From assembly GCA_017415715.1 (NCBI GenBank), contig JAFQFD010000005.1:33691-97690 (forward strand): a stretch of 64,000 bases of DNA, written 5' to 3'. Both the position numbers and the translations under genes were made by a program. Below are positions 36,253 to 63,800 of the stretch, piece by piece; the first letter of the stretch is position 1, and each line of letters begins with the position of its first letter. This stretch comes from Bacteroidales bacterium. Its GTDB lineage: Bacteria > Bacteroidota > Bacteroidia > Bacteroidales > UBA932. The notes beneath the pieces were generated by a model. The model worked only from the letters and a program-made list of their open reading frames with translations, ran no database searches and was not told the DNA's origin.

Positions 36253-36500
36253 ATTGAAATACTGGGGTCACTAGTAGCACTGTGCGACTACCGGCCTACA
36301 CTAAGCACACCATACGTTCGAGGGTGGCGACTTGCACTGGGGACTACGGCACTGAGGTCGCCGCCCATGCACCGGAGGGCCGTCTTAAGGCGAATCTCTT
36401 GACTTTCGTAGAAAGGCTAGAGCTTCGCGACGGACCGGAGTTATAGACAGTTGCCTTCTGTGGATCTCGAAGAGTCCACAGAGGGCAAGTGCCGCTTTTA
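36253..36500 (+). ncRNA. Structured element, copy 1
   Basis: A ~248-nt non-coding element shared with 41224-41446 and 63551-63800. Conserved blocks are GTCACTAGT, CGTTCGAGG, GGCGACTTGCACT, GGTCGCCGCC, AAAGGCTAGAG-like and TGCCGCTT. Helix partners co-vary among copies: here CCGTC (36380) with GACGG (36429), and TTGCC (36451) with GGCAA (36484). It ends in an AT-rich tract that could act as a terminator. Confidence 0.75.
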
Positions 36501-36583
36501 TACAAATAAAGACCCCCACCAGAAACGCTCTATTATTGAGCTTATGATGAGAGTCTATGTTACGAGTATGAGTATCAGAAACA

Positions 36584-37237
36584 CTACAGCAGACTTGCAA
36601 TCTCTTGTGCTATTGCTTTAAAATCAAGATCCTTTAACTGTTCCTGAGTAATCGCAATTTGATATGCCGGTTTATATCAGTATGGGAAGTGGCTAGGAAT
36701 ATACTTAGCATTGACATTATTTGCAAAGTCAATAATTACATATTTCTTTTCCTGTGGAGCAACGCCAAGAAATATGGAGTTTTCTCTGCCAAGTTTATTG
36801 AACTTGTCATCTCGCAGGTCTATCCTCCTATATTTTGACCAATAACCTTTATAGTCATTCATGATCTCAAGTTTGCGAGATGATCCACCTGAACTAACGC
36901 AGCAATCACTTGCAGCTGACACCTTAGCAGTTGCTAGTATTTCTCTATTTCGATCTGCTCCAGCACCAACAATCTCCAATCCACAATTATTCAGCTCGGC
37001 CATTAAAGTATCCTCATATATCCACGAAGCAACAAGATCCCGACCATATTCTATAGGAGTTCTGCTATCTCTATTGTGCCTACAACTCATCAGATTAGCA
37101 TGAGTTTGAGGAAATTTTGCAGCTAAAAGGTCAATATCACCTTCGAGAACACAAATACTAGATTCCGGATAGCCCAAGCTGGTTGCTACTGGGACCAAAT
37201 CGCCCAGTAATTCAGTCATTCCTGTAAATGCTCCCAT
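36584..37237 (-). CDS. Putative restriction endonuclease subunit, interrupted by an in-frame TGA
   Basis: The frame opens at 37237 and reads 186 residues to a TGA at 36677-36679. It then continues in the same frame for 31 more sensible codons (YKPAYQIAITQEQLKDLDF...) to a TAG at 36584. The TGA probably replaces a Trp TGG. The core has nuclease-like features (WIYEDTLMAELNNCG, SDCCVSSGG then KLEIMND). It lies 4 bases downstream of the 281-residue endonuclease gene in the C-R unit. It may be a second subunit or an accessory nuclease. No specific family recognised. Confidence 0.55.
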
Positions 37238-37241
37238 AATA

Positions 37242-38087
37242 CTATCGTTTATTCTTTACAATTTCACAAAGACTGGCCAAAGAGTGATGAAACTGCATCT
37301 GCTTTTGATGCCACTGAACAAAACCAAATGGCATTAAAATAGTGCTTCCTCCCGTCCTCTTACCAGGAACAACCATATCCAAATGCGATGAAATAGCCTC
37401 TCTGATATCTGATATAGAGAAAATAACATCGAAATCATCTTCTCCAAGATAATTCACATACCAAACATAATCTGCCCAATCATCAGAGTTCAGTGCCAAG
37501 CCTCTAGAGAAACAGTATTCCGCTATATTAGCGGCATTATCCTTAAACCACTGTAACAAACGATCTGCTTTCTCTTTATCCATTTTTACCAACGAATCCC
37601 AAACAAGGCGACCCTTTCTGTTTTGATAGCCAATCAGCTTATCATCCTGCCCTGCTGTGATTGCTGGATTTTTAAGAAGCTTTAATGTGTCTGTGTGGCC
37701 ATAGAAATATAACTTCAATGAATCCTTTATATCATCAGGAATGACAACAGAATACTGTTTTTCAAATCCCGCCACAAATCTATCAACCCCAATAAGGTAG
37801 ACCTGGCCACCTGAACTTTTCTTTATTGATATTCTTACTTTGCCACCGTCAACCAATTCAAGAACTAAATCCGTTTTGGATTTAGTATGGCCACCAAGGA
37901 CGCACTCCACATCTGTTTCACCCAAACCGCCTACATTCGCACTCTTGATTTCACCAATTCCCAATCTAGCCGAAAACTCAGAGCAAAACTCCTTATCTTC
38001 AAACATATGTTCAACTTTTGTCTCATTCTCGTGACCTGATAATTTTGCGTGCTTCCAGCCTGTAGCACGATCTCTTCCGTTATTCAT
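37242..38087 (-). CDS. Putative type II restriction endonuclease
   Basis: 281 residues. A PD-(D/E)xK-like core is visible: GLGETDVECVLGG, then SKTDLVLELVDGGKVRISIKK, which supplies the acidic and lysine residues of the nuclease fold. It lies directly downstream of a C-protein gene (3-base gap) and divergent from a cytosine-C5 methyltransferase gene, the classic layout of controller-regulated type II systems. The recognition sequence is not predictable. Base composition is more AT-rich than in the preceding core genes. Confidence 0.68.
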   Translation of the reverse strand: MNNGRDRATGWKHAKLSGHENETKVEHMFEDKEFCSEFSARLGIGEIKSANVGGLGETDVECVLGGHTKSKTDLVLELVDGGKVRISIKKSSGGQVYLIGVDRFVAGFEKQYSVVIPDDIKDSLKLYFYGHTDTLKLLKNPAITAGQDDKLIGYQNRKGRLVWDSLVKMDKEKADRLLQWFKDNAANIAEYCFSRGLALNSDDWADYVWYVNYLGEDDFDVIFSISDIREAISSHLDMVVPGKRTGGSTILMPFGFVQWHQKQMQFHHSLASLCEIVKNKR

Positions 38088-38090
38088 GAT

Positions 38091-38312
38091 TTATTCGAAA
38101 AAATAAGACATATCCTTGCCGTATCTCTTTGCCAAGTGATACAACATAATTGCAGAAACATTTATTTCTGCATTCTCTATTTTAGAAAGGTGACTTTGAG
38201 TTATAAGACCCTCTTTCTGTAAATCAGCTTGCTTTATACCTAGTTCAGTACGAACATGATACAACTTACCCGCTAATTTTAGTTTTTCCCGGCTTAATTC
38301 TGATGCTTTCAT
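38091..38312 (-). CDS. Controller (C) protein of the restriction-modification system, XRE HTH
   Basis: 73 residues, almost entirely an XRE helix-turn-helix (LYHVRTELGIKQADLQKEGL, then SHLSKIENAEINVSAIMLYHLAKRYG). The small size and its place ahead of the endonuclease gene match C proteins, which delay endonuclease expression until the host is methylated. An operator-like palindrome lies 27 bases upstream. A -7 box TACATTTG lies on the minus strand at 38317-38324, unusually close to the start. Confidence 0.8.
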   Translation of the reverse strand: MKASELSREKLKLAGKLYHVRTELGIKQADLQKEGLITQSHLSKIENAEINVSAIMLYHLAKRYGKDMSYFFE

Positions 38313-38338
38313 ATTGCAAATGTAAGAAAGTGACCTTT

Positions 38339-38357
38339 ATATTCCATATTGGAATAT
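38339..38357. promoter_or_regulatory. C-box-like operator between the C and M genes
   Basis: A perfect inverted repeat with 8-base arms, ATATTCCA-TAT-TGGAATAT. It overlaps the -33 region of the methyltransferase promoter and lies just upstream of the C-gene -7 box, so one bound C dimer could regulate both directions. Confidence 0.7.
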
Positions 38358-38378
38358 TTGTAATATTTACTATCTTTG
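38349..38378 (+). promoter_or_regulatory. Promoter of the methyltransferase gene (TTG-N19-TATCTTTG)
   Basis: TTG at 38349-38351 and TATCTTTG at 38371-38378 with a 19-base spacer. It is 25 bases upstream of the start, and the TTG lies inside the operator. Confidence 0.75.
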
Positions 38379-38403
38379 CACCGGAATTATAAATGCTATT
38401 GAA

Positions 38404-39561
38404 ATGTCTTATAAAGTAGTTGATTTATTCGCTGGTGTTGGAGGACTTAGTTACGGTTTTGCACACGATAGTGACTTTGAAATCGTAGCAGCTAACGAGA
38501 TCTTGGAGCCAATGGCAAGAGCATACAGTGCTAACCACCCAGGAGTCAAAATGTACAACAAGGATATCAAGGATTTCAGTATAGAAGACCTCAAGAAAGA
38601 CCTCGGTATTGAAAAGGGCGATATCGATATTGTAGTTGGCGGCCCTCCTTGTCAGGCTTACTCAACTGTCGGAAAGAGAATGCTTGACGATCCAAGAGGA
38701 AAACTATTCCAGGAGTACTTTAGAATATTGAGCGAAGTAAGACCTCAGATTTTCGTATATGAAAATGTCAAAGGACTTCTTTCTATGCAAGGAGGAAACC
38801 TGATTAAACAAATTCAGGAACTTTTTGAAAGCATTGGATATACAGTTCAGAAGAAGCTTCTTAATGCAGCTGATTATGGTGCAGCACAGATAAGAGAGCG
38901 TATCATTATTGTAGGAACATTAAATGGATATAAATTCAAATACCCAAAGCCTACGCATTACGATCCGCTCACAAATCCTTCAAACCCAGACGGCCTGAAG
39001 CCGTATGTAACTCTTGGAGAAGCCTTAGGCGATTTACCGTCTATTCAGTCTGGAGAAAGCGGAACAGAGTATGCTTGTGAGCCACAGAACGACTTCCAGA
39101 GATTGATGAGAGCTAATGCACCTGAAAAGATCGCTGAACACGAGACATCAAAGAATAACGACAGGATGATTGCTCTTATGAAAGCACTTCCAGATGGCGG
39201 ATCTCCTAAAGATGTACCTGAAGAATTAAGGCCGACAAGCGGATTTGCTAATACATATTGTAGACTATGGTGGAATCGTCCAAGCACTACAATTACTCGT
39301 AACTTAGGTTGTCCGTCTTCTTCGAGGTGTATTCACCCTAAAGACGCAAGACCACTGACAACTAGAGAAGGTGCACGCCTCCAAGGATTCCCAGATGATT
39401 ATATTTTTTGCGGTTCAAGAGCTGAAAAGCACTTGCAAATAGGAAACGCTGTTCCTACATTCTTGTCTAGGGCAATTAAAGACGCTGTAAAAAGGTGCTT
39501 GAAAGGAGAAAACAAGGACGACGATAATGATATAACCATCCTCGAGCCTACTCTATTCTAA
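38404..39561 (+). CDS. DNA (cytosine-5)-methyltransferase
   Basis: 385 residues with the ordered C5-methyltransferase motifs: I (DLFAGVGGLSYGF), IV (GGPPCQAYSTVGKR, catalytic Cys), VI (YENVKGLL), VIII (QIRERIIIVG), IX (TREGARLQGFPDDY) and X (QIGNAVPTFLSRAI). The target-recognition domain lies at about 200-300. It protects host DNA from the divergently encoded endonuclease. A strong terminator follows 7 bases after the stop. Confidence 0.94.
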   Translation: MSYKVVDLFAGVGGLSYGFAHDSDFEIVAANEILEPMARAYSANHPGVKMYNKDIKDFSIEDLKKDLGIEKGDIDIVVGGPPCQAYSTVGKRMLDDPRGKLFQEYFRILSEVRPQIFVYENVKGLLSMQGGNLIKQIQELFESIGYTVQKKLLNAADYGAAQIRERIIIVGTLNGYKFKYPKPTHYDPLTNPSNPDGLKPYVTLGEALGDLPSIQSGESGTEYACEPQNDFQRLMRANAPEKIAEHETSKNNDRMIALMKALPDGGSPKDVPEELRPTSGFANTYCRLWWNRPSTTITRNLGCPSSSRCIHPKDARPLTTREGARLQGFPDDYIFCGSRAEKHLQIGNAVPTFLSRAIKDAVKRCLKGENKDDDNDITILEPTLF

Positions 39562-39568
39562 AACAATA

Positions 39569-39607: not shown

Positions 39608-39614
39608 ACTGAGG

Positions 39615-40636: not shown

Positions 40637-40893
40637 TTATTCTATTTCAGCGAGATATTTCTCGACTTGTTCTTTAAGAGGCAGAAGGTCTTGTTCTATA
40701 ACATTCCAGACTTCTTCGGGATCCACCTGGTAATAACCGTGAACCAGAAAATGTCTCATTGCTACGATGACCTTCAAGTTTGTGTCCGGGTGGGCTTCTT
40801 TAAAATCAAGACTGAGCATATATGATGCTTCTCATATGCGATGGCTTGAAGAATATGCTCCAAGCGACCTCTGCCCCTAACTTGCTCTCTCAT
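40637..40893 (-). pseudogene. HepT-like HEPN toxin gene, internally deleted and frameshifted
   Basis: An ATG at 40893, inside the end of the mntA-like gene, begins the expected HepT N-terminus (MREQVRGRGRLEHILQAIAY). That frame is then lost. From 40819 a different frame encodes the C-terminal half (LDFKEAHPDTNLKVIVAMRH, FLVHGYYQVDPEEVW) with the RX4H RNase motif. About 35-40 residues of the middle helices are missing and the halves are out of frame by 2. The toxin is therefore probably inactive. Confidence 0.75.
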
Positions 40894-41185
40894 ATATCAG
40901 AATCTTGTCGTTGTTAGCCGTACGTTCAGCGAAAGATAATAAAGTACCTTCAGTAATCAGATCCACATCGAAACCAAGAATCTCGCTCAACTCCAGTGAA
41001 ATTTCAGCATGTCTCATCAGACTGACCTTGGCCTCTTTATCGAAGACTACCAGTATATCGATATCACTTCCGCTATGCGCCTCTCCCCTGGCATAAGAGC
41101 CAAACACCCATGCCTTCACAATCGGTTGGGTTGCGAAATAACGTACTATCTTGTCTGTAAGACTCTTATCCATAGCAACTGGCAT
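40877..41185 (-). CDS. MntA-like nucleotidyltransferase antitoxin
   Basis: 102 residues of the minimal nucleotidyltransferase fold. The active-site signature is GSYARGEAHSGSDIDILV (GS...DxD) with a third acidic residue in FDVDLI. In HepT/MntA modules this protein AMPylates and silences the HEPN RNase. The start could be Met1 or Met5. It overlaps the N-terminus of the broken hepT gene by 17 bases, as in intact pairs. Confidence 0.85.
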   Translation of the reverse strand: MPVAMDKSLTDKIVRYFATQPIVKAWVFGSYARGEAHSGSDIDILVVFDKEAKVSLMRHAEISLELSEILGFDVDLITEGTLLSFAERTANNDKILIYERAS

Positions 41186-41223: not shown

Positions 41224-41446
41224 ATGTGCGACTCGACCTACACGTAAGCAGGATAACGTTCGAGGGCGGCGACTTGCACTATCGACTACGGCACTGAGGT
41301 CGCCGCCCCTGCACCCGGAGGACCGCCTTCAACGAGCAAGTCTCTTGGCTTTTTGTAAAAAAGACGAGAGTCTTGCGGCGGCCCGGAGTAATAGTTAGGT
41401 CGCCTTCTTTGATCTTCTTGAAGTCAAAGAGGGCGACACCGCTTTA
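41224..41446 (+). ncRNA. Structured element, copy 2 (5'-truncated)
   Basis: A 223-nt match to copies 1 and 3 that begins at GTGCGAC, so it lacks the first ~30 bases. It retains CGTTCGAGG, GGCGACTTGCACT, GGTCGCCGCC and ACCGCTT. Helices: CCGCC (41323) with GGCGG (41377), and TCGCC (41400) with GGCGA (41432). Both differ from copy 1 by compensatory changes. Confidence 0.75.
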
Positions 41447-41550: not shown

Positions 41551-41859
41551 ATGCGAAGAGAACATATCATAGATGCTATTAGAACCGGTCTTTCGAGCCT
41601 GAATACTGGTGTTGAAGTGCGTCTTTATGGCTCTGAAGCAAGAGGTGAGGCACACGAAAAGTCAGATATTGATCTGCTTGTGCTTGTTCCTATGGATAAG
41701 GCAACATTGCAGGACGAACTTGAAATCACAGCTCCGTTGTATGATGTCGAATTACAGACCGGAGTCTTGATCAATGCTTTGATTCTTCCGAAACGAGAAT
41801 GGGGCCGGAAAGTAACGCCATTTTATGAGAATGTAATGCAAGATTCGATAGTCTTGTGA
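41551..41859 (+). CDS. Orphan minimal nucleotidyltransferase (MNT)
   Basis: 102 residues with GSEARGEAHEKSDIDLLVLV, the GS...DxD site of MNT antitoxins, and a later acidic stretch (YDVELQTGVLINALIL). Relatives are normally followed by a HEPN gene, but here a terminator hairpin comes 33 bases after the stop. A -7 box TATATTTG lies at 41525-41532. It is a different subgroup from the MntA-like gene at 40877. Confidence 0.8.
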   Translation: MRREHIIDAIRTGLSSLNTGVEVRLYGSEARGEAHEKSDIDLLVLVPMDKATLQDELEITAPLYDVELQTGVLINALILPKREWGRKVTPFYENVMQDSIVL

Positions 41860-47388: not shown

Positions 47389-48552
47389 ATGGATTCTTTT
47401 AAGATAACGAACTTTGGTCCTATCAATAAGGTGGATGTCCAGTTGGGAGATTTGACGATTCTGTTGGGACCTCAGGCGAGTGGAAAAACATTGTTCTTGC
47501 AGATGTTGAAACTATTGGTTGATAAGGATCATATAGTTCAGACATTGGCTAGATATAACTATGTCACAAACAAGCAGCCGGACCAGATCCTTAATTACTA
47601 TTTTGGCGATAAGTTGTCCTCTATGTGGAAAGAGGATACTGTTGTCAAGGCAGATGGTAAAAGTTATAGGAAGTCCTTCCTTATGAGTCAGAGTGATGAA
47701 AGTGCGGTTGAAGAGGTGTTTTACGTGCCGGCACAGAGAATTCTCTCGATTTCGGATGGTCGTCCGAAGAATTTTATGGAGTATGATATTTCGTCTCCGT
47801 ATGTGTTGAGGAATTTCAGCGAGACTTTGAGATTGTTCTTCCAGAATGAAATTGGAGATGATCAGACTGTATTTCCTTTGAACAACAGACTGAAAGGCGG
47901 TCTGAAGAAGTCATTCAACGAGTCAATTTTTCACGGTGGCCAGGTGGTTATTGATGAGAGTTCCGGACAGAAGAAGATGCGTATGCAGGTGGGAGGCTCG
48001 AGTCTTCCGTTTATGACCTGGAGTGCAGGACAGAAGGAGTTTATGCCGTTGTTGATGGCGACGTATTGTCTGACAGGTCCTGTGATCAAGACTATTAATC
48101 GCAAGCAGTATAAGTATGTGATCATCGAGGAACCGGAGATGGGTCTTCATCCAAGGGCGATTCAGGCTGTAATTGTGCAGATGCTTGAGTTTATCAATGC
48201 CGGATATAAGGTGATTGTGTCAACTCATTCTTCCGTTTTACTTGAGTTTGCTTGGGCGTTTAAGATGATTCAAAGGCTTCCTGAGAATGTTCGTGTTGAG
48301 GCTCTTTGTGAGTTGTTTGATGTTTCTCCGAATACCAATGTGACAAAGATATTCCTGGGAGTGGAGAATAAGGAGTTGAAGACTTATTTTTTCAATCATA
48401 AGAAGAATGGCGTGAATAGTTTGGATATCAGTTCTCTTGATGTGATGAGCGAGAATGTGGAAGAATCTGAATGGGGTGGGTTGTCTCAATTTGCGACCAA
48501 GGCGTCGGATGTCGTTTCAAAGTATATGTCAGAGTACCTGTCCGAAGAATAA
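47389..48552 (+). CDS. OLD/RecF-type AAA ATPase
   Basis: 387 residues. Walker A is GPQASGKT (about 27) in the opening SMC/RecF-like segment FKITNFGPINKVDVQLGDL. A signature-like SAGQKEFMPLL precedes Walker B (YVIIEEPEMGLHP), and the switch segment VIVSTHSSVLLEF follows. This is the AAA_15/AAA_21 class found in many phage-defence systems (OLD, Gabija, PARIS, retron and Abi partners). It has no TOPRIM domain. A small partner gene starts 6 bases downstream. Confidence 0.8.
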   Translation: MDSFKITNFGPINKVDVQLGDLTILLGPQASGKTLFLQMLKLLVDKDHIVQTLARYNYVTNKQPDQILNYYFGDKLSSMWKEDTVVKADGKSYRKSFLMSQSDESAVEEVFYVPAQRILSISDGRPKNFMEYDISSPYVLRNFSETLRLFFQNEIGDDQTVFPLNNRLKGGLKKSFNESIFHGGQVVIDESSGQKKMRMQVGGSSLPFMTWSAGQKEFMPLLMATYCLTGPVIKTINRKQYKYVIIEEPEMGLHPRAIQAVIVQMLEFINAGYKVIVSTHSSVLLEFAWAFKMIQRLPENVRVEALCELFDVSPNTNVTKIFLGVENKELKTYFFNHKKNGVNSLDISSLDVMSENVEESEWGGLSQFATKASDVVSKYMSEYLSEE

Positions 48553-52586: not shown

Positions 52587-52633
52587 GAGGTTTAGGGTAA
52601 TAGTGCTATATTTACATTGTAATTTTGGGAATT

Positions 52634-54142
52634 ATGAAAATTGAGGGAAACATTTTGATTGCAGAATGCACCGCATACGATTTTAAGGAGATGGTTGAGA
52701 AAGCCAAGATAAAAGATTGGCTAAAAAGTATCAGTGCATTTGCAAACACCGCAGGAGGCACATTGTATTTCGGTGTTGATAACAACGGAGGCATTGTCGG
52801 TCTTGACGATGCACAGATTGATTCTGATTTCATAAGCGAAAAGATTAAGGCTCATTTGGATCCTATTCCATCGTTCAGACTCGTTCCTCACGAGATCAAT
52901 GACAAGAAGATTTTAGAAGTCGTTGTCGATGCCGGAAATCTGACACCATACTACATATTCATGAACAAGACGCGGACGGCATATGTCAGGGTTGGTAATG
53001 AAAGTGTTCAGGCTAATTCTCATCAGCTGCTCAATCTTGTTCTCAAGGGAACCAATCACAGTTGGGATTCTCTTGTTACAACGGAGAGAGCGGAAGATCA
53101 TACATTTGCAATGCTCCGAAATGCGTTTGCGGAAAGGACTGATGTTGTTTGGGATGACAAACTCCTTATTTCGCTTGGACTCGTCACATCAGATGGTCTT
53201 CTCACCAATGCAGGACTCTTATTTGCTGATTATTGCAACCTCAGACAGTCTCAGATATACTGTACACGGTGGAATGGACTTGAAAAAGACAATGCGATAA
53301 ACGATTCTGAATATCAAGGCAACATCCTCCACTTAATGAAAATGGGACTGGAGTTTATCAAGGCTAATACAGCGAAACGCTGGTATAAACTGCCTCAGTA
53401 CCGTCTGAACTTCCCTGAATACTCAGAACGAGCATTGGAGGAAGCCTGCATCAATCATCTGATTCATAGAGACTACACGTTTCTTGGTAGCGAAGTTCAT
53501 ATAGACATATATGATGATAGATTGGAATTCTATTCACCAGGAGGAATGTTCGACGGCACATCTATTCAAGACCAGGACCCGCTATCAGTTCCATCTGTCA
53601 GAAGGAATCCTGTCATCGCAGATGTTCTTTCACAGCTCAGTTATATGGAGAAACGCGGTAGTGGCTTCAAGAAGATGAAGTTACAAACTTCCCTCCTGCC
53701 GACATATACAGAGGAAAAGAAACCGACATATCGCTCAACACCGTCGTCATTCTTCACTACTTTCCGCAATGTAAATTATGGCCTTACTGAAAGTGATTTT
53801 GAGGCTATCATTGATTCGGAACTTAAGAAAGGACAATGGAACGGTCCAAGACAGACGACTGAAAGGTTACCAGAAAACGAGGAGGGTTACCAGAAAAGGT
53901 TACCAGTAAACCACGAGGGGTTACCTGAAAAGGTTACCAGAAAATCAATCAGTCCTTCCGCTCAACGCATCATTGACATATTACAGGAAGATGCAAGCAT
54001 TTCCATTTCACTGTTGGCCAGCAAGTTGAATATCTCTGCCACATCCATAAAGAAGCATTTGGCTACACTTAAGGATATGGGAATCATCGAACGCGTCGGA
54101 CCGGATAAAGGAGGATATTGGAAGGTTCACATACGAAAATAA
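52634..54142 (+). CDS. AlbA_2/Schlafen-type putative transcriptional regulator with a C-terminal winged helix
   Basis: 502 residues from the ATG at 52634. The N-terminal AlbA_2 domain (WLKSISAFANTAGGTLYFGV) is followed by the ATPase-C-like segment (ERALEEACINHLIHRDY, YSPGGMFDG, EKRGSGF). The C-terminal winged helix is ISISLLASKLNISATSIKKH. Between them lies a Pro/Glu linker encoded by GGTTACC repeats. Such proteins are frequent next to integrases and may regulate the element. Confidence 0.82.
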   Translation: MKIEGNILIAECTAYDFKEMVEKAKIKDWLKSISAFANTAGGTLYFGVDNNGGIVGLDDAQIDSDFISEKIKAHLDPIPSFRLVPHEINDKKILEVVVDAGNLTPYYIFMNKTRTAYVRVGNESVQANSHQLLNLVLKGTNHSWDSLVTTERAEDHTFAMLRNAFAERTDVVWDDKLLISLGLVTSDGLLTNAGLLFADYCNLRQSQIYCTRWNGLEKDNAINDSEYQGNILHLMKMGLEFIKANTAKRWYKLPQYRLNFPEYSERALEEACINHLIHRDYTFLGSEVHIDIYDDRLEFYSPGGMFDGTSIQDQDPLSVPSVRRNPVIADVLSQLSYMEKRGSGFKKMKLQTSLLPTYTEEKKPTYRSTPSSFFTTFRNVNYGLTESDFEAIIDSELKKGQWNGPRQTTERLPENEEGYQKRLPVNHEGLPEKVTRKSISPSAQRIIDILQEDASISISLLASKLNISATSIKKHLATLKDMGIIERVGPDKGGYWKVHIRK

Positions 54143-55230: not shown

Positions 55231-55536
55231 ATGGAATTAACATCAGCAATGGAACAGTTCTTTGGCGGTATATTGAAGCCGCTTGTCACAGAGGCTGTCA
55301 AGGAAGCAATTGCAGAAAAGGAAATCAAGAAAGATCCGAATTATATCACGGTAGAAGAGGCTTGTGAATTTTTGCATTGCAGTGAGCCGACCTTATACAA
55401 TAGAGTGAATAAGGGTGAGATCAAGGTCTTAAAGAATGGGCGCAGTTCTCTCATAGACAAAAGAAAACTGATCGAGGATCTTGAATCCGGAAAATTGAAG
55501 TTACGCAAAGACAAACACAGAAAGGGCAAGGCATGA
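55231..55536 (+). CDS. Excisionase-like helix-turn-helix protein
   Basis: 101 residues. The MerR-like/excisionase HTH YITVEEACEFLHCSEPTLYN then RVNKGEIKVLKNGRSSLIDK spans ~38-80, and a basic tail closes the protein. This is the DNA-binding protein usually found beside Bacteroidetes integrases, where it acts in excision or as a regulator. Its stop overlaps the next start by 4 bases. Confidence 0.82.
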   Translation: MELTSAMEQFFGGILKPLVTEAVKEAIAEKEIKKDPNYITVEEACEFLHCSEPTLYNRVNKGEIKVLKNGRSSLIDKRKLIEDLESGKLKLRKDKHRKGKA

Positions 55537-56585
55537 AAAAGGAGGTTTCAAAATATCAAGAAGAGGTGCCAATCGAGAACCCCATTGACAGATATTTTAA
55601 GGTTATGAGCGGTGCCGAATGGATGGCCGAAGCCAACAGTATGCCTCTTAGAAAGAAGCTTGCCGGTGATCTTTGGTTCGAGGGAGAGAATGCGGTTTTG
55701 TTTGCCGACACTAATGCCGGAAAAAGTATTTTGGCCGTTCAGATTGCAGACTCTATTTCACGAGGAACAGCGATTGACCCTCTTGAACTCACTGCTGATG
55801 CCCAGCCGGTCATATATTTTGACTTCGAGATGGAGGCCCCGCAGTTCAGTGCCAGGTATTCCGTCAATGGTCAGAACCCATATAAATGGCATACGAATTT
55901 TAATCGCGTAGAAATTAACGACGATGCTGATATCCCTATGGGAAATTATACTCATTTCATTTGTGATGCGATAGAGTCAGTAATGAATGCGGTTGGGGCT
56001 AAGATCGGGATTATTGACAACATTACATATCTGGGCGACGAGCTTGAAAAGAGTAAAGCTGCTGCACCTTTGATTAAAATGCTCAAGGCTATCAAAAAGA
56101 AGAATGGGTTTTCATTCCTGATTCTGGCACATACCCCAAAACGCAACAACACAAAGCCCATCACGAAAAATGATCTGAGCGGAAGCAAACAGATTATGAA
56201 CCTGATTGATTCTGCTTTTGCGATCGGAGACAGTAAGCAGGAAAACGGACTCCACTACATCAAGCAAGTCAAGAGCAGAAATGCAAGATACCAGTTTGAC
56301 AAAGACAATGTTCTGATCTGTAAGATAGTGAAGGAAGAAAATTTCTTGAAGTTCGTGATTCAAGGAACCGCTCTTGAGATGGATCATCTGGAGTCTGCAG
56401 AACCCATGAACAGAGAAAAGCTTTACGATCTTATCAAACGGGAATATCCAAAGGGCAAGAGTTCGAGAAGTATTGCCGACCAGGCCGGATACAGCCACAC
56501 CACAATCAACAAAGTCGTGGCTGAACTGATCAAGCGTGGCGAGCTTAAAGAGCGTGGAAATGGAAACTTGACAGAAATGCCATAG
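55533..56585 (+). CDS. RepA-like AAA ATPase (AAA_25)
   Basis: 350 residues. Walker A is FADTNAGKSILA (about 62) and Walker B-like IGIIDNITYLG lies near 155. LAHTPKRNN is the sensor region and DLSGSKQIMNLIDSAFAIG follows. A winged-helix-like C-terminus (SSRSIADQAGYSHTTINKVV) ends the protein. This is the RepA/hexameric helicase-loader type used for replication of plasmids and integrative elements. It is coupled to the upstream HTH gene and the downstream primase. Confidence 0.85.
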   Translation: MKKEVSKYQEEVPIENPIDRYFKVMSGAEWMAEANSMPLRKKLAGDLWFEGENAVLFADTNAGKSILAVQIADSISRGTAIDPLELTADAQPVIYFDFEMEAPQFSARYSVNGQNPYKWHTNFNRVEINDDADIPMGNYTHFICDAIESVMNAVGAKIGIIDNITYLGDELEKSKAAAPLIKMLKAIKKKNGFSFLILAHTPKRNNTKPITKNDLSGSKQIMNLIDSAFAIGDSKQENGLHYIKQVKSRNARYQFDKDNVLICKIVKEENFLKFVIQGTALEMDHLESAEPMNREKLYDLIKREYPKGKSSRSIADQAGYSHTTINKVVAELIKRGELKERGNGNLTEMP

Positions 56586-56594
56586 GTTCCGATA

Positions 56595-56660
56595 TTTCCA
56601 CAGTTTCCAGTCATAATATTGTGGAAACTATGGAAAGTATGTAAACGCTGTAAGTTTCCA
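56595..56660. other. TTTCCA/TGGAAA cluster, candidate replication origin or operator
   Basis: TTTCCACAGTTTCCA (56595-56609) and TGGAAACTATGGAAA (56622-56636) form an inverted repeat with 15-base arms and one mismatch, spacer 12. A further GTTTCCAC lies at 56654-56661. It lies between the RepA-like and primase genes. Confidence 0.5.
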
Positions 56661-56690
56661 CTTTTCGCCACACTAAAAAACGATAATTCT

Positions 56691-57647
56691 ATGAATAACA
56701 AATCATTGAAATACAGATACTCTCTGGAAACATACGACCCTAAGGTAAGAAAACATATCTGCCCGGTGTGCAAGAAGCGGACATTCGTCAGGTATGTGGA
56801 TTTGGAAACCGGAGACTATGTTTCCACCGATGTCGGCAGATGTGATCGAGAGGCGAAATGCGGCTATCACAAGAAGCCGAGAGATTATTTTGAGGAGAAT
56901 GGCGGTGGGCCGAGGAAAGATTATTTCTTCCCGAGAGCAGTACCGAAGAAGGCTTCCGAAGATTATTTCTCTGTCGTATCATCACAGTTGGCCAAAGACA
57001 CGATGACAGCATACGAGAAAAACAATCTCATTGCATTCATCAGGAAACGCTGGGGCAAAGATGCTGTTCAGAAAATCACCTCATCATATCCGATTGGTAC
57101 CTGTAAATTTTGGCCGGGAGCGACAATCTTTTGGCAGCAGGATGCAGAAGGACGATTCCGGACAGGCAAGATTATGCTATACAACAGAGAGAATGGCCAT
57201 AGGATTAAGGATCCTGTCAGTAGAATCATGTGGGTTCATAAACTGCCATTGTTCCGCGACTTCAACTTGAAACAATGTCTTTTCGGCGAAAGTCTGATCA
57301 AAGACAATGACAAACCTGTGGCCATCGTGGAAAGTGAGAAGACAGCTATCATGGCCAGTCTTTTCTTTCCGGATGCGATATGGCTGGCAACAGGTGGACT
57401 TAACAATCTGCAGAGCGAGAAAATACGATGCCTGTCCGGACGAGAAATCATCCTCTTCCCAGATTTGGGAGCAGAGACAAAATGGATTATGCAAGCCGAT
57501 TCCATCCCCCACCTCAAAAATGCCAAGGTTTCTACCTGGCTGATGAAGCACAGCACTCAAAAGGATAAAGACGACGGACTCGACATCGGCGACTGGCTCA
57601 TCAGACTACCGACAATCAAGAGTTTTCGGGTGAGGGATTTTTTGTAA
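56691..57647 (+). CDS. Zinc-finger/Toprim-like primase protein (DUF6371 type)
   Basis: 318 residues from the ATG at 56691; the upstream frame extension is not family-like. A CHC2-like zinc finger opens the protein (HICPVCKKRTFVRY, then CDREAKCGYHKKP). The C-terminal half has a Toprim-like segment: AIVESEKTAIMASLFFPDA, LATGGLNNLQ and IILFPDLGAE. Together with the RepA-like ATPase it forms a small replication module. Confidence 0.78.
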   Translation: MNNKSLKYRYSLETYDPKVRKHICPVCKKRTFVRYVDLETGDYVSTDVGRCDREAKCGYHKKPRDYFEENGGGPRKDYFFPRAVPKKASEDYFSVVSSQLAKDTMTAYEKNNLIAFIRKRWGKDAVQKITSSYPIGTCKFWPGATIFWQQDAEGRFRTGKIMLYNRENGHRIKDPVSRIMWVHKLPLFRDFNLKQCLFGESLIKDNDKPVAIVESEKTAIMASLFFPDAIWLATGGLNNLQSEKIRCLSGREIILFPDLGAETKWIMQADSIPHLKNAKVSTWLMKHSTQKDKDDGLDIGDWLIRLPTIKSFRVRDFL

Positions 57648-57755: not shown

Positions 57756-58460
57756 TTACTCTCCAGCTGCAGCATCTTCGGCAAGGGTAACCATTGTCAT
57801 CATCTCGCCGGACTTTTCGCCGGTCTTGGTATTCACGAAGAAATACTTGATGAAGACCTTTGGAGCTGCGGCGTTTGGTGCTCCGTGCTTGTTGTCGTAG
57901 TCCTGCTTGATGTCATACTCTTCGCAAGCCGCTTCGAGCGGTGCGCCGATCTGGACGGCCTTACTGTAGGCACGGGTTACACCGTTTGACTGTGGAGCGG
58001 ATGCCTGGATGATCATCTTGAGATCTGCTGCGCCCTCGGGTTCTCCCTCAAGTTCGAAAGTGAACTTTGTAGGAGTGAGAGCCACGACTGCCTCTGTCGG
58101 AGCCTCTACGCCCTGGAGTGCTGGAGGGTTGGCAAGAGCCTCACCGCCACAGAACACGATCCAGTAGTTGAGACGTGAATAGAGGTTGGCTCCGGAGATC
58201 TTTGCTGAAGTACCGAGAACTGACTTTCCAGCCTGGGTCTGAGCCAAGGCATTCCACGCCAGGATCTGGGCGTTGGTGAGGTTCTTCCAGCTCTGTGAGA
58301 GCTGCTTGAAGATTGACTTGACAGCTGCCTGTGCAGATGTTCTGACACCTCCACCGTAGCCACGGTTACGGATGTACTTGCGACCGCGGACCTTGGCTGC
58401 GGTCACTCCTTTTGCGGAGCCTGACATCTCCTCAAAGGCGATAGAAGGAATGTACTTCAT
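57756..58460 (-). CDS. Phage-type structural-like protein, paralogue 1
   Basis: 234 residues. The N-terminus IPSIAFEEMSGSAKGVTAAK, then RGRKYIRNRG, a Gln/Ala stretch, and SQSWKNLTNAQILAWNALAQ follows a pattern common in phage proteins of unknown role (SGSxxG, R-rich turn, then W..L...Q...W). It is paralogous to the products at 60053 and 61266. The C-terminus is a beta-rich domain. Last gene of a five-gene minus-strand operon. A virion or surface role is inference. Confidence 0.6.
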   Translation of the reverse strand: MKYIPSIAFEEMSGSAKGVTAAKVRGRKYIRNRGYGGGVRTSAQAAVKSIFKQLSQSWKNLTNAQILAWNALAQTQAGKSVLGTSAKISGANLYSRLNYWIVFCGGEALANPPALQGVEAPTEAVVALTPTKFTFELEGEPEGAADLKMIIQASAPQSNGVTRAYSKAVQIGAPLEAACEEYDIKQDYDNKHGAPNAAAPKVFIKYFFVNTKTGEKSGEMMTMVTLAEDAAAGE

Positions 58461-58493: not shown

Positions 58494-58973
58494 TTACGCG
58501 CGTTTTCTGAGGATTCGAATGATGGTCCAGCCGATGGCAGCAAGTGCCAGGAGCGAGAGGATCGTGAGGGTTATGCCGCCGGTTTTCATCTTGAAGGTCT
58601 GCCATCGGGAAAGGTCTTTTTCGACTTCTACTGTTTCATATACGACAACATCCTTGAAAATGACACTGTCGCGATAAACAATCTTCGTCTGCACTTCCAC
58701 AGGCTTCTGCACCGGCTTGGTCTCCAGCGAGTGAGCCAGCAATCCATCTGAGACGGATGCTGCACTCTTTGCAAACTCATTCTCGAGAACTGATACGGTG
58801 TCTTTGGTTACAACTTTCTCGACGATCTTCGGAACTTCAAGATAGACAGTGTCGGTCTGATAGACGGTCTCGATGCGGGTTTCTGTGATGATCTTCTCTG
58901 ATGGTGCAGCCTGGCGGGTGGTCGCACAGGCTACACACAGGGCAGAGAAAAGAACGAGGGTGAAGTTTTTCAT
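58494..58973 (-). CDS. u-spanin-like lipoprotein with a C-terminal membrane helix
   Basis: 159 residues. A lipoprotein signal (FSALCVACA, probable lipidated Cys16) is followed by a periplasmic, valine/threonine-rich coiled region (~20-130) and a C-terminal membrane helix (ITLTILSLLALAAIGWTII) ending in RKRA. An outer-membrane lipid anchor plus an inner-membrane C-terminal helix in one protein is the topology of a unimolecular spanin, which fuses the two membranes in phage lysis. A holin-like gene lies 13 bases upstream. Confidence 0.6.
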   Translation of the reverse strand: MKNFTLVLFSALCVACATTRQAAPSEKIITETRIETVYQTDTVYLEVPKIVEKVVTKDTVSVLENEFAKSAASVSDGLLAHSLETKPVQKPVEVQTKIVYRDSVIFKDVVVYETVEVEKDLSRWQTFKMKTGGITLTILSLLALAAIGWTIIRILRKRA

Positions 58974-58986
58974 AGGTTATGTTGTA

Positions 58987-59241
58987 TTAGGGACGGTCTG
59001 CTTTCTTGAGCAGTTCTGCTTCAAACTTGTGGAATTTGATGTCGTAGGATGCCTTTACACCGAGGATCGCACCGCAGAGAACCAGCAACTCACTGACGAT
59101 CGAGATTGCAGAGTATGTAATCTCTCCCAGCGGTTCAATCCAGAACAGACACACCATTGCAATGACAACCCCGCTAGCAAAACTGGCAATCGCAAGACCG
59201 CCCTGCAGACGTGTGATTTCTATGTGAGACATCTTTGGCAT
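58987..59241 (-). CDS. Holin-like two-helix membrane protein
   Basis: 84 residues with two membrane helices (LAIASFASGVVIAMVCLFWI and YSAISIVSELLVLCGAIL) and a short charged C-terminus. Small two-helix proteins directly before a spanin-type gene are candidate holins. Start at Met1 or Met4. The assignment rests on topology and position, not sequence homology. Confidence 0.5.
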   Translation of the reverse strand: MPKMSHIEITRLQGGLAIASFASGVVIAMVCLFWIEPLGEITYSAISIVSELLVLCGAILGVKASYDIKFHKFEAELLKKADRP

Positions 59242-59247
59242 AGCGTA

Positions 59248-60030
59248 TTATTCTGTTTCAGTAGTCGCCGTATCATTCTCTTGATTATCGACAACGACAT
59301 TCTCTCCATCTCTTACTGCATAGAAGAATATAAATGGATCCCATGATGTCGCACGGCTGCTTGAACAAGGTTTCGGAATAGTTATCGTTCCATTTTCAAC
59401 CTTTCCAATGAACATACCGGCTCCTTTGTAATCACTGTTGTTTAGGCATCCGGCCATAACCATGTCAACCGACACATCAGTCGGAAAATTCTCAAGATGA
59501 ATGATGATGTCATCTTCGTAGTAGTCTGCCGTATCATCTAACTGACAGTGGAAGAAGCACCAGCCTTCTTCTACTATACATGCGACCTCACTTTCGTATG
59601 CATCATTGTTCTCATACGTAACTACCAATCGGGTATTTGTAGATTTCTCAATATCAACTCGCTTTCCTCTCTGGATATACAGAGTCGCAAGGATGATTGT
59701 GATGTGGCCTAAGTCATCGTAGATGGGTAGTTTCTCTATACAGATAGTGTTACGGTCTTTTAGCCAGGTACGTAATACCGTTCCTATACTATACTCCAAA
59801 ACGCCGTATGACACTTTTTCACTATAGTAACTGTGTATGTAACATACAGCCTCCGCACTCTTATTGAGGGTCAGGTCCGGAACATAAATCTCAAGGACGT
59901 CGGCCCTCTGATATGCTTCAGAAGTAGTATCTATATCAAACTTGGCATTAAGTACGATAAGTTTCTCTGACTGATAGTCCTTTATCTCTATGGTACTACC
60001 GCCAAAATTATTTCCTGTCGATGTAATCAT
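59248..60030 (-). CDS. Unknown beta-rich protein in the phage-like operon
   Basis: 260 residues with no recognised domain. It has many alternating hydrophobic strands (KLIVLNAKFDID; TIILATLYIQRGKRVDI; EEGWCFFHCQLDDTADYYED) and an acidic C-terminus. No signal peptide or membrane helix. It lies between the phage-type paralogue and the holin-like gene, so a virion or adaptor role is possible. Confidence 0.5.
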   Translation of the reverse strand: MITSTGNNFGGSTIEIKDYQSEKLIVLNAKFDIDTTSEAYQRADVLEIYVPDLTLNKSAEAVCYIHSYYSEKVSYGVLEYSIGTVLRTWLKDRNTICIEKLPIYDDLGHITIILATLYIQRGKRVDIEKSTNTRLVVTYENNDAYESEVACIVEEGWCFFHCQLDDTADYYEDDIIIHLENFPTDVSVDMVMAGCLNNSDYKGAGMFIGKVENGTITIPKPCSSSRATSWDPFIFFYAVRDGENVVVDNQENDTATTETE

Positions 60031-60052
60031 AACTCAAAGTGACGATTAAGGG

Positions 60053-61111
60053 TTAAAAGAATACTGCATTTCCTATTGCATCCGCTGGTTTTTCATATGA
60101 ACATCCTCGATGCATAAACGATACTCTCAATTCTTTATCCCACTTGTCTTCATATATCTGAATCTCGTAAGATTGAGGGAGATAATCATTCTCTTCCGTG
60201 CAGCGTGCCAGCATATATCCTGTACCAGTAACGATCTTTTCAGGAAATCTTTTGGTAGTGAAGTTAGATGATGCGACATTAGAATGCCCGTTCAACCTGG
60301 CTTTGATAGAGCAGATTGCAGATCCAGGAGAGAACTCCATATCCAAGTCTGACACACCTTCGTTGTACTCAATATTCTCGTCTGTGAGTCTTACTCTTGG
60401 AACATATTCCTGAGAATAGGCTGTAGAACTTTCCTTGCAGACGGCACTTATGGCCATTGATTCACCGGTGAAGCCGGTCTTCTTGTCGAGCCAGTAGAAC
60501 TCGCAGAAGTATTTCTTTCCTGCCTCCGGAGCAACGCCCATGACGGATGTGTAAAGTGCAGTCAGGTCAGCATCGCCCCAATCCGGAGCGAGACCAGGAG
60601 TGATGATCACTGTCTGACCCCATCCAGAAGATACTCCAGGACTGAGGGCCGGCGACATCTTGAACACGAGGACGTGACTTTCGGAAGGCTGCTGAAGACC
60701 GGTGAAGATGATCATCTCCGGAGAGATCCAAAGGTCGTCATAAAGAACTTCAGGAACATCGCAGATGTAGTCCGGGGCATCGGCCAGCATAGGTTCTCCT
60801 ACCATCTGAAGGTTGGAGTTGATGCGGACGAAGGCGTTGTGAGCTGTCATTTCGGCAGCTTGGCCGAGGGTGGAGATGCCTTTCATATGACCAGCCAAGA
60901 TCTCCCACTGGTTAATTTGGGAATCGGAGAGCTGTCGGAATGTGCGGGAGATCCTGGATAGTCTGTTACGTGAGACCGCCTGGGCAGGCGTTACTATCTT
61001 GGAGTGTTGGGCACGGGATGAGAGGATGTTGCGGCCCTTGACGTTGCGGGCGGTGACATCCTTCGCTGTGCCAGCGAAGTCGTTGAAGGCTATTGAGGGT
61101 TTTACAATCAT
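60053..61111 (-). CDS. Phage-type structural-like protein, paralogue 2 (long)
   Basis: 352 residues from the ATG at 61111. Residues 1-90 (VKPSIAFNDFAGTAKDVTAR, NVKGRNILSSR, TFRQLSDSQINQWEILAGHM) align with the start of the 57756 product. Two beta-rich regions follow; the first ends with KKYFCEFYWLDKKTGFTGES, matching the closing strand of its paralogues. The extra C-terminal ~120 residues are unique. First gene of the minus-strand operon. Confidence 0.6.
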   Translation of the reverse strand: MIVKPSIAFNDFAGTAKDVTARNVKGRNILSSRAQHSKIVTPAQAVSRNRLSRISRTFRQLSDSQINQWEILAGHMKGISTLGQAAEMTAHNAFVRINSNLQMVGEPMLADAPDYICDVPEVLYDDLWISPEMIIFTGLQQPSESHVLVFKMSPALSPGVSSGWGQTVIITPGLAPDWGDADLTALYTSVMGVAPEAGKKYFCEFYWLDKKTGFTGESMAISAVCKESSTAYSQEYVPRVRLTDENIEYNEGVSDLDMEFSPGSAICSIKARLNGHSNVASSNFTTKRFPEKIVTGTGYMLARCTEENDYLPQSYEIQIYEDKWDKELRVSFMHRGCSYEKPADAIGNAVFF

Positions 61112-61209
61112 AAGGCTGCGGTGCAGCTCCCTCAATTCCAAAGGCAAAGATAAGTATTTATTCAATATATTGTGCAATAATGGTTTAAGATTTTGTAGTT
61201 AAAGTTTCG

Positions 61210-61229
61210 CTTTATGTAATTACATAAAG
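61210..61229. promoter_or_regulatory. 20-bp perfect palindrome in the divergent intergenic region
   Basis: CTTTATGTAATTACATAAAG lies between the divergent starts at 61111 and 61266, where a dimeric repressor could control both phage-like units. Confidence 0.65.
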
Positions 61230-61265
61230 ATTTTTGCGAACTTTGCACATCCTAAACTTACGACT

Positions 61266-61964
61266 ATGCCGAAATACAAACCAAGCCTCCTCTTTTCTGA
61301 TTGCTATGCCTCCGTCGGAAACATCACATTCTTCCACATTGACGGAGAATGTTATTTCAAGACCAAAGCGAATCCAGTATTCCCCGGTACCGCTGGCCAG
61401 CAGGTGCAGCTATCCATCCATCAAAGAGGAATCTATGAATGGAAAAACCTCGATCACAATGAGCAGCTGGAATGGAATGCCTTGGCAAAGTCCGTGAAGT
61501 CCAGAAGACTTCCGGCTGATCCTTCGTGTCACATCTGCGGATATAATCTATTCATGTCTGCCTATCACGGCCTGGCTTGTATAGGCGACGAGAGGGTTCC
61601 TGAACCTCAACCGTTACCGAATTTTCCTGTCGTGTGCCTGGAACTGTTATCTGCAGCAGTCCTCAACAGCACCGACCTGCAAATATCCTTCCGGATCTAT
61701 AGCGACAAGATCAGAGATCGATTCCGGATCATCGGCAAGATCCAGCTCACCACACCAGGCTACGGTTGCCATTGCGGAAAACTCCGCAATCACATCGGCA
61801 CAGTCACTGAAGATGGCCAGGTCACATTTACGATCCAGAACTATACAGCCACATCCGGACTCGATCTGAAGGAGTATCAAGTACACATTAGATACTTTCT
61901 CATCGATGCAGATAGCGGACACCGTTCCAAAGAGCAGTGCCTATCAGTAAGGATAAGCATATAA
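61266..61964 (+). CDS. Phage-type structural-like protein, paralogue 3
   Basis: 232 residues. It keeps the family layout in diverged form: KPSLLFSDCYASVGNITFFH, then ANPVFPGTAGQQVQLSIHQR and NEQLEWNALAKSV, with NLFMSAYH in the middle. It ends in the shared strand VHIRYFLIDADSGHRSKEQ. It is transcribed divergently from the other two. Function unknown. Confidence 0.6.
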   Translation: MPKYKPSLLFSDCYASVGNITFFHIDGECYFKTKANPVFPGTAGQQVQLSIHQRGIYEWKNLDHNEQLEWNALAKSVKSRRLPADPSCHICGYNLFMSAYHGLACIGDERVPEPQPLPNFPVVCLELLSAAVLNSTDLQISFRIYSDKIRDRFRIIGKIQLTTPGYGCHCGKLRNHIGTVTEDGQVTFTIQNYTATSGLDLKEYQVHIRYFLIDADSGHRSKEQCLSVRISI

Positions 61965-62039
61965 GGGTATATATCTATTATGTAAGTCTTATACACATAG
62001 GAAGCAGAGCAGTAAAACTACATGACTACCGTCGTACAC

Positions 62040-63545
62040 TTTCAATATAAATATATAGCGCAGCTAATGTCTTCCGGGCGGGAGATGAGGGTGCAGATGT
62101 GATGAGGCTCAAGCGGGCGAATGTGTGTTGGCCTATGGTGTTTGCCGGCGGTTTTCGCTTCCGCGAAGCGGATGCGGAAACTGACGGCAAATGCCATAGG
62201 GGGCAAGCCCGTCCGGGCGCGGCAGGTGGCGGACGGACAACCTTGATACGGGAGATGAGGGTCTTTCCGCCACTGGCACAAACAGTCACTAAGAACTACC
62301 AACGCCCCAACGATGATGCGAGCGTCAGGCGAGTCTGTGGGATTTGCGGAGTGCAGCGATAGCGGAACGGAACAAAGCACACAGTCTCGCCCTGCCCGCC
62401 CTCGGAAGATTTGGAAGACTTGGAGCGGAACCGGAGGAACGACAGTGACGTAGGTGCAGCGGAAAGGCTTTCAATTCTGGAGAGGAAAAAGCGGGCAGTA
62501 TTAAACTCATCGGCAGAGCCGATACCTTGCTTACGGAGGGCTTTCTTGAAGCTGGCGGCTCGTCCGACTGCTTGAAGAAAGGCTGGTGGAAGCCCGCAGC
62601 TGTGCTGCTAAGGAGACAGTTTGCTGAAGGACAGACATCCCAACAAGCGATTGATGTTTTTCAATATACCACTGAGGTTCGCACGGGTGCTTCTTTCAGA
62701 CCAAGGAGCAGGGCGCGTAGCGACTTGGGCTGGAAGAAACTGAGGGAGCGACGGGCGAAAGGGGTCCTTCGCCCTTGAGCGACCGAATCAACTGTCTCCG
62801 CCTCGACTGAGCGGGTAAAAGTGATGCGTAATATATTGGTACTGAGGGAGATAGTTAACATAATCCATATTGTGTAATCTGACGCTTGCAGGGCGTTCCT
62901 ACGGGCGTATAACCTTCTTAAATTGAGGTTGTTGGGGCGAGTGATGACGGTGGAAGTCTGTTACACAATAAACCCTTGGATTATGTTAATCTAGCGGGCC
63001 ACGAAGGATGACGGTCCACTCCGCACTGCGGTAGCGAAGGCGATAATGCTTCCCTGTGGGGATAAGAGGGGCATAGACCAGCTGGAGTCTTTTGGCTTTT
63101 GGGGGAGGAAATTTTGCATAAAGAACGCAGAGATTTTGTCCGTAGGCAAAATCGCGGAGTTCGCAAAATTTGCCGGAGGAAAAAGACGAAAGTCTCCAGA
63201 CCTTATTAGTTTATACGAGCGGAGCGAGTTGTTGGGGCGTGGGCCATAGAGAGTTTGAGGGCTTTGGGAGCGGAGGCGGACAAAGACATCAATCTCTCTG
63301 TGAGTGTGCGGTGGGGATTAGATGGTCGTCTTTCGTGGCTTTCGCAGAAAGACATGAAGGACGAGTGCCGCTTTTTGTTGATGTGCGGCCTTGGGCCGGA
63401 CATCGCAGGATGACGGTCGGTATCAACGAGAGTAGGTTTGCGACGAGGGCGTGGGCTTGTGGGGAGAGAGTCAGGTATCCAACGATTTTCCCAAAATCGT
63501 TGATAAGATACCTGATGACCGGGGATGGAATCGTGGCAAACCGGG
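62040..63545 (+). ncRNA. Hairpin-dense non-coding region, candidate large structured RNA
   Basis: About 1.5 kb without a convincing gene. Hairpins, many with G-U wobbles that pair only in plus-strand RNA, include a long helix at 62132-62205 (CCTATGG..TTTGCCG with CGGCAAA..CCATAGG enclosing TCCGC-GAA-GCGGA). Others are ATCGGC-AGA-GCCGAT (about 62508), GGGCGAA..TTCGCCC (about 62755), AGAC-GAAA-GTCT (about 63185) and AACGATTTT-CCC-AAAATCGTT (about 63480). Long-range arms CTGCCCGC / GCGGGCAG and a TTACACAATA / TAACATAATCC-type inverted repeat also occur. No promoter is certain. Confidence 0.5.
63304..63376 (+). ncRNA. Structured element, copy 4 (3' part only)
   Basis: A diverged match to the last third of the element: TGCGG, GATTAGATGG, then TCGTC (63326) pairing with GACGA (63360), then GTGCCGCTTTTT. 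The upstream two thirds are not recognisable. Confidence 0.55.
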
Positions 63546-63550
63546 GGTTG

Positions 63551-63800
63551 GTTGAAATGCTGGGGTCACTAGTGGCACTGGCCGACTACCGGCCTTCACT
63601 AAGAACATTGACGTTCGAGGGCGGCGACTTGCACTGGCGATTACTGCACTGAGGTCGTCGCCCATGCACCGGAGGACTGCCTTGAAGGCAAGTCTCTTGG
63701 CTTTTCCGTGAAAAGACGAGAGTCTTGCGGCAGTCCGGAGTTATAGATAGTCGTCTTCTGACGATCCGCTTGCGGTCGGAAGAGGACGAGTGCCGCTTAT
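63551..63800 (+). ncRNA. Structured element, copy 3
   Basis: 250 nt, the cleanest copy. Helices: CTGCC (63677) with GGCAG (63729), and TCGTC (63751) with GACGA (63785). Both co-vary relative to copies 1 and 2. It ends in GTGCCGCTTATATATA. Confidence 0.75.

Follow-up and report, generated by a model that had tools for sequence, protein, structure and literature searches.

A probable new family of giant structured RNA genes on integrative elements of gut Bacteroidales

We analysed a stretch of 64,000 nucleotides (hereafter the window) from a Bacteroidales bacterium (GenBank assembly GCA_017415715.1, contig JAFQFD010000005.1, positions 33,691 to 97,690), in which a preliminary description had pointed out a repeated structured RNA element. 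The window carries a giant noncoding RNA at approximately 62,060-63,800, beside six open reading frames (ORFs) of unknown proteins, and copy 3 of the repeated element, which we term R3, makes up the 3' end of that RNA. The large structured RNA measures ~1.3 kb, and ~1.75 kb in the clade of the window. We regard it as fairly probable that it belongs to a new family of giant structured RNAs whose genes are carried by integrative elements of gut Bacteroidales (some at the 3' ends of genes for transfer RNA (tRNA) or transfer-messenger RNA (tmRNA)) beside unknown proteins, and that it forms a multi-domain scaffold. Computation establishes that it is noncoding, folds in a strand-specific manner, covaries, is linked to a set of genes and is tRNA-proximal in nine loci.

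Extent and relatives of the RNA

When the intergenic regions were compared with the relatives by BLAST, positions 62,798-63,762 proved 91.5% identical to the related locus L052, and positions 61,200-62,613 (the neighbouring ORF and the 5' part of the RNA) 72.1% identical. A nine-sequence alignment shows a long noncoding stretch from just past the ORF at 61,266-61,964 up to 63,800, and the family-wide consensus spans ~1.4-1.8 kb in 25 loci, the middle and the 3' half being best conserved. The ancestral part occupies 62,060-63,376 on the plus strand. Its 5' end was estimated from an AT-rich box (62,043-62,058) and a GGGCGGG block at 62,076, and its original 3' end is GAGTGCCGCTT at 63,363-63,373. 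At the corresponding place AAGTACCGCTT is found in 9 of 21 relatives and AAGTACC without the remainder in 3; in the others the motif varies or is missing, or the contig ends. The most conserved domain, described by the covariance model R2 (62,857-62,988, plus strand), is an interrupted helix of ~20 bp that closes a loop of ~90 nt. In the window's clade the R3 domain (copy 3, 63,552-63,800, plus strand) is appended to the ancestral part.

In 17 of 22 loci an AT-rich box precedes the RNA, which is suggestive, and no more, of transcription as a discrete large RNA. Directly 3' of the RNA follows a hairpin (63,810-63,840, plus strand) common to L051 and to contig C54 of the window's own genome; a role in ending the giant-RNA transcript is a guess, and the terminator-like pattern that a scan reported falls on the other strand. 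Two further elements were seen around the RNA. In several relatives (e.g. L081, L088, L105 and L119) a conserved GCAGCGGC-loop-GCCGCTGC hairpin stands right before the AT-rich box and is possibly the end of a neighbouring transcript; downstream, repeated ATCGGCC units and a GTGGACA-rich stretch occur, for example, in L081, L105 and L119.

Relatives were collected from 84,980 species genomes with a search pattern based on the best-conserved stretch, in which three inner positions were left free. This one scan found 41 related loci in 35 assemblies, all labelled Bacteroidales or Bacteroidia. A ruminant is named for 19 of these loci, and 17 carry RUG names, which we take to denote rumen genomes. 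One viral contig (G790) also carries the pattern. Within the window's genus, probably Cryptobacteroides, the R2 model (E<=0.001) matched 62 of 400 genomes, 37 with E<1e-15; across the order it matched 2 of 374 sampled genomes, both from that same genus. For R3, 16 of 400 genomes in the genus gave a match at E<=0.01, and two matches, at E 0.004 and 0.008, are likely due to chance; order-wide, its sole match among 393 genomes was the window's own genome. This genome holds a second giant-RNA locus at the end of contig C53 (G000:C53) and one further R3 copy (G000:C54:2210).

Two further patterns and another protein alignment, scanned against viral contigs, gave no match, nor did the 232-aa neighbouring protein (P61266, see below) in the phage collection or the L068 RNA in the phage and plasmid collections. 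The other viral match, L067 (5,070 bp), has a 234-aa homolog at its end and is without an RNA match. By title or abstract opening, no publication describing this RNA was found among the matches listed.

Covarying structure

RNAalifold was applied to 39 of 43 sequences (those with a coverage below 900 nt were dropped) and predicted 226 pairs, with 86.9% of cells paired and two-sided changes in 135 pairs. Against a null that replays substitutions on the tree (37 of the 39 sequences, after dropping those that are 98% identical), 22 of the 226 predicted pairs reach E<0.05, compared with 1-3 in six slid controls. The helix of the R2 domain (A9) is partly fixed by the search pattern, so that evidence can come only from the columns left free and from the 3' strand. 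In 34 sequences the free pairing columns covary (CG 28 and GC 6 in one; AU 22, GC 7, UA 4 and other 1 in another), 17 cells show a two-sided change against 3.1 in shuffles, and the 3' strand, which the search left unconstrained, is complementary throughout. This set was drawn from 43 loci, excluding seven in which the domain is incomplete, L115 for an internal deletion and L119 as identical to L094.

The three R3 copies of the window had been placed at 36,253-36,500, 41,224-41,446 and 63,551-63,800 and a partial fourth at 63,304-63,376; re-reading the sequence confirms all four positions, the plus strand and the quoted helices. The fourth is correctly located and misidentified, being the original 3' end of the giant RNA. 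Nor is the unit of ~225-250 nt then proposed supported: copy 3 is the 3' domain of a far larger RNA, and R3 also occurs alone. Pairwise identity among the three copies is 76-82%. Against dinucleotide shuffles, the single-sequence fold has z -5.25 for copy 3, -5.15 for copy 2 and -3.15 for copy 1 (1 of 200 shuffles being as stable).

A covariance model (R1) of the 135-nt R3 core, built from six copies, served to collect 19 copies (18 distinct), whose alignment was fitted to the covariance model; L064, a weaker match, was left out. Two-sided changes affect 11 of 42 pairs (shuffles 4.8, standard deviation 1.2), and the covariation first read from a few helices stands. At the level of cells there are 30 such changes (shuffles 8.8, standard deviation 2.3), with 94.3% of cells paired, and sliding the partner by 1-3 columns leaves just 1-5. 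Further pair types show no excess (21 against 20.5 in shuffles). Because it covaries, R3 was or is functional, and the earlier proposal of a structured RNA that has been under selection is supported.

Short motifs also recur within the RNA. In 26 loci CACTGACG occurs 37 times (shuffled mean 0.9), TGATGCGG 30 times (1.1) and GCACT 128 times (40.0), which suggests a repeated tertiary contact.

Noncoding character and strand

Over 39 aligned giant-RNA sequences a codon signal is absent. Gap lengths are multiples of three in 148 of 1066 cases (13.9%; 67 sequence pairs at 75-97% identity), and nine pairs show no steady phase bias of substitutions (the most uneven reads 46/29/40, and one pair has a single substitution). 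Long antisense open frames do exist, up to 322 aa from stop to stop, and ORFs of at least 60 aa number 364 in 26 loci against 302 in shuffles. Some of these frames are alike between loci, as expected because the RNA itself is conserved; their lengths vary from locus to locus. A protein-coding origin was rejected, given that gap lengths ignore threes and substitutions lack a steady phase bias.

The fold belongs to one strand. For 12 sequences chosen from the 43, the plus strand is more stable than the minus strand in every case (means -686.9 versus -606.4 kcal/mol). The plus-strand fold holds 547 G-U against 233 A-C combinations, whereas a fold fitted to the minus strand has 303 of each.

Mobile setting

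ARAGORN reported tRNA or tmRNA genes in 14 of 48 sources, three of which duplicate a locus already counted and two of which are without the giant RNA. This leaves nine distinct giant-RNA loci (Arg, Cys, three Phe, two Ser, tmRNA and a Glu-Ala pair), and in 9 of 9 the RNA lies 3' of the tRNA or tmRNA gene and is co-oriented with it. As in giant ornate RNAs, the carrier is mobile or phage DNA near tRNA genes; the other scanned stretches are without a tRNA gene. In two islands a repeat of the tRNA end marks the far side: the final 14 bases of tRNA-Phe reappear after 4.1 kb in L154 (G360:C11), and those of tRNA-Ser after 15.5 kb in G116:C14. The reversed repeat pattern had no match in the genomes of these two islands. 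A second tRNA-end copy was found neither genome-wide for G116:C9, G165:C7 and G244:C9 (the last near a contig end) nor within the locus stretch for L051, L052, L082 and L158.

The L154 island (8505-12678) contains a BRO-N gene, a 5'-truncated giant RNA and four small ORFs, with no ORF of integrase length between the repeats. The part of the G116:C14 island that was read holds a DUF3987 protein and restriction-modification genes. An integrase is present in the window, L053, L152, L157, L160, L162 and G790, and in L152, L157, L160 and L162 its homologs adjoin P61266. Overall, the suggestion that the element is mobile or element-borne gains support as linkage to mobile DNA. The genes for terminase, portal, head protease and tape measure mark G790 as a real phage. 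It may be a prophage beside an island, because the RNA and the protein module lie past its integrase and so perhaps at the edge of the prophage. With one viral contig, and the RNA past its integrase, the label 'phage-borne' is not claimed.

In the window, the tyrosine recombinase of the phage-integrase family (51,240-52,586, plus strand) would belong to the same element as the RNA. Two replication-type ORFs follow (55,533-57,647, plus strand), encoding a primase/helicase-like AAA_25 ATPase and a DUF6371 zinc-ribbon protein. Between the RNA copies we also observed defence-like cargo (38,404-39,561; 40,877-41,185; 41,551-41,859; 47,389-48,552; 52,625-54,142): a C5 methylase, two nucleotidyltransferases, an AAA protein (matching PADLOC PDC-M56A, E 5.2e-161) and a Schlafen AlbA_2 protein.

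The linked protein module

At least one gene of a protein module lies upstream of the RNA in 34 of 42 relative loci (the window itself not counted). Six of the eight loci without it (L081, L083, L084, L102, L103 and L108) hold less than 1.3 kb upstream; L095 and L110 hold more. Three weaker R2 matches (L159, L164 and L165) also carry the module. In the window it comprises the 232-aa protein P61266 (61,266-61,964, plus strand), which has no known domain and 31 homologous ORFs in the 42 loci, and five ORFs on the minus strand: two P61266 paralogs with a basic N-terminal stretch of 90 aa (356 aa at 60,053-61,123 and 234 aa at 57,756-58,460), two unknown proteins (260 aa at 59,248-60,030 and 159 aa at 58,494-58,973) and a small ORF of ~83-85 aa (58,993-59,241). 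Three of the module proteins are thus paralogs, and the gene set is divergent from or co-directed with the RNA. No convincing relative was found in Pfam, nor in PHROG, NCBIfam or PADLOC (weak matches only in these three, best E 0.0045), nor by sequence in the PDB (one chance-level match, E 0.3).

The RNA might work as a ribonucleoprotein with the three paralogs rather than as an RNA-only particle, a possibility that we take seriously and hold tentatively. The linkage just described speaks for it, as does charge: the first 90 residues carry a mean net charge of +10.0 in A8 (23 proteins) and +4.4 in A7 (27 proteins), against -10.8 and -0.7 for the remainder, and such a basic N-terminal stretch would suit nucleic-acid binding. 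Nonetheless, in many loci just P61266 was found within the sequence examined, and the window's own P61266 has a charge of only +2 in its first 90 residues. A more elaborate version appears doubtful to us, namely that the giant RNA and the three paralogs (basic N-terminal, variable C-terminal domain) make a large particle that aids replication of the element, phage hijack or spread, with small R3 RNAs interfering or regulating.

RNA or structured DNA

It might be argued that the sequence acts not as RNA but as structured DNA used in recombination or transfer, in the manner of attC or oriT. Its place near the tRNA side of integrative islands, the structured repeats, and the one orientation and common 3' end of the R3 copies in the window would all fit. 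We nevertheless consider this unlikely: the excess of G-U over A-C by more than 2 to 1 and the greater stability of the plus strand in 12 of 12 sequences are needless for a DNA hairpin, and the AT-rich box recurs upstream of the RNA. To our knowledge, ~1.3 kb also far exceeds any attC- or oriT-type site.

Comparison with known large RNAs

The closest analogues by description are GOLLD and ROOL, which are large and ornate RNAs of unknown function, encoded by phages and prophages, often near tRNA islands, that form RNA-only cages (PMC12286853). GOLLD forms a 14-mer cage, and ROOL, known under a name taken from the rumen, an 8-mer cage. Many GOLLD members exceed 800 nt, as against ~1.3-1.75 kb here, where moreover the RNA is linked to a protein module and was seen on integrative islands. 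For ROOL no protein binding partner has been identified (PMC12286853); here a protein set is linked. OLE resembles the giant RNA as a large RNA with dedicated protein partners (PMC12286853, section 9). It differs in its length of about 600 nt and its occurrence mostly in Gram-positive Bacillota. The most abundant transcripts of phage ICP1 and of PLE satellites are predicted to be noncoding (PMC7567579); these are Vibrio systems with ~800 nt in ICP1, and the likeness is by description only.

Rfam was searched with cmscan at E<=10 for the window RNA and the L068 RNA, and at gathering score for 10 relatives. Neither GOLLD nor ROOL appeared in either search, the giant RNA matched no family, and the relatives returned two tRNAs only; OLE gave no match. 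The database includes HEARO, and ROOL, at ~600 nt, is smaller than the giant RNA. OLE is not known from mobile elements. Rfam also includes GOLLD, ROOL and OLE (PMC12286853).

The Rfam comparison was extended to the R3 copies, which belong to no family at gathering score; the sub-threshold list for copy 3 consists of chance-level matches to microRNA and small-RNA families. The preliminary description had set aside group I and II introns, tmRNA, RNase P and riboswitches, and indeed no such model matches. Below threshold, the window RNA gave none of these, and L068 a single cobalamin riboswitch (E 4.7), read as chance.

Divergent homology to GOLLD or ROOL, i.e. membership of the same family after growth to a larger size, seems quite improbable. 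The RNA is large, ornate, tRNA-proximal and in mobile or phage-like DNA, as reported for GOLLD and ROOL (PMC12286853, PMC7567579), and its best-conserved middle and 3' half recall the conserved 3' region of GOLLD. Against this stand the lack of a match in the above cmscan searches, the larger size and the tie to a protein module. Most likely, then, the giant RNA would work, by analogy, like the GOLLD- and ROOL-type RNAs.

Appended and stand-alone forms of R3

R3 matches occur in 4 of 46 relative sources (L079, L083, L097 and L118), some sources ending before its expected place; in L079 it is a separate unit after the giant RNA. In the window copy 1 forms a stand-alone small RNA (36,109-36,500, plus strand), with R3 (36,254-36,500) preceded by a 5' domain of ~145 nt (36,109-36,253). 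This domain also precedes R3 in L050, L053 and L055, and at lower identity in L057; in the alignments made it had no similarity to the giant RNA. Copy 2 (41,225-41,446, plus strand) is a 5'-truncated, stand-alone R3 between two nucleotidyltransferase genes, and a truncated R3 beside such a gene recurs in L059 and L060. It looks like a deletion, because L053 has the 5' domain between its nucleotidyltransferase region and R3.

We infer that R3 is a 3' module that can detach: in one clade it is fused to the giant RNA, and elsewhere it exists as a small RNA gene or a relic; perhaps it is a small RNA in its own right. We also asked whether the R3 copies could be att sites of islands inserted one after another, which the shared core near TTGAAATGCTGG would fit; an exact crossover point could not be located. 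Debris of retrotransposition, in which target-primed reverse transcription would leave copies truncated at the 5' end and constant at the 3' end, was rejected as highly improbable: copy 1 (W1), copy 2 (W2), the C54 copy and others do have the same 3' end and differing 5' ends, but the 5' domain of copy 1 is no random truncation, because it is common to L050, L053 and L055, and no reverse transcriptase was found among the selection of neighbour genes scanned with Pfam.

As a separate observation, a 23-bp direct repeat that starts 3 bases past tRNA-Phe brackets a lone R3 in L057 (5372-14103). The bracketed stretch also holds homologs of the AAA ATPase and subtilase genes of L054 and is probably a small integrative island of its own.

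Interpretation

A number of results weigh against a giant RNA family of integrative elements. A test of all column pairs gave just 4 significant pairs, of which 2 are canonical (24 of 25 sequences), and a second such test 2, of which 1 lies within the structure (37 sequences); one alignment also serves both the fold and the covariation test. In the R2 domain 18 of 20 pairs are invariant and two of five measures do not rise above shuffles (2 two-sided pairs, shuffles 1.6; 3 further pair types, shuffles 3.1). In the window's clade the recurring motif is seldom seen, with GCACT occurring once in the window's own RNA. There is no tRNA in the window, and a second tRNA-end repeat was found in just 2 of 9 tRNA cases (5 searched genome-wide, 4 within the locus stretch). 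The copies in L154 and L161 are probably relics, because their 5' half is missing. Within the limits set by the all-pair tests and the R2 measures, the long noncoding sequence has the extensive covarying structure of a giant ornate RNA.

Summarizing, we prefer a giant structured RNA that acts as an RNA or RNA-protein scaffold of its mobile element, a function we infer. It would be transcribed from near the conserved AT-rich box and, by analogy, adopt a scaffold fold of several domains. As with GOLLD and ROOL, this scaffold would probably be a multimer; alternatively, the RNA may form a ribonucleoprotein with the linked proteins, through their basic N-terminal domains. This scaffold might then serve the element upon induction or in self-defence. 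A 'regulatory RNA', as first proposed, has no support of its own; the size, the architecture and the gene linkage speak instead for a scaffold-type RNA of the GOLLD or ROOL sort.

Few giant ornate RNAs are known, and a family without an Rfam match is added here. It is larger than GOLLD and OLE as described, and in the order-wide genome sample it is confined to one genus. Unlike ROOL, it is tied to a defined protein set, which offers partners to test, and its truncated natural copies provide deletion variants. In this way the purpose of giant RNAs on mobile elements becomes more testable.

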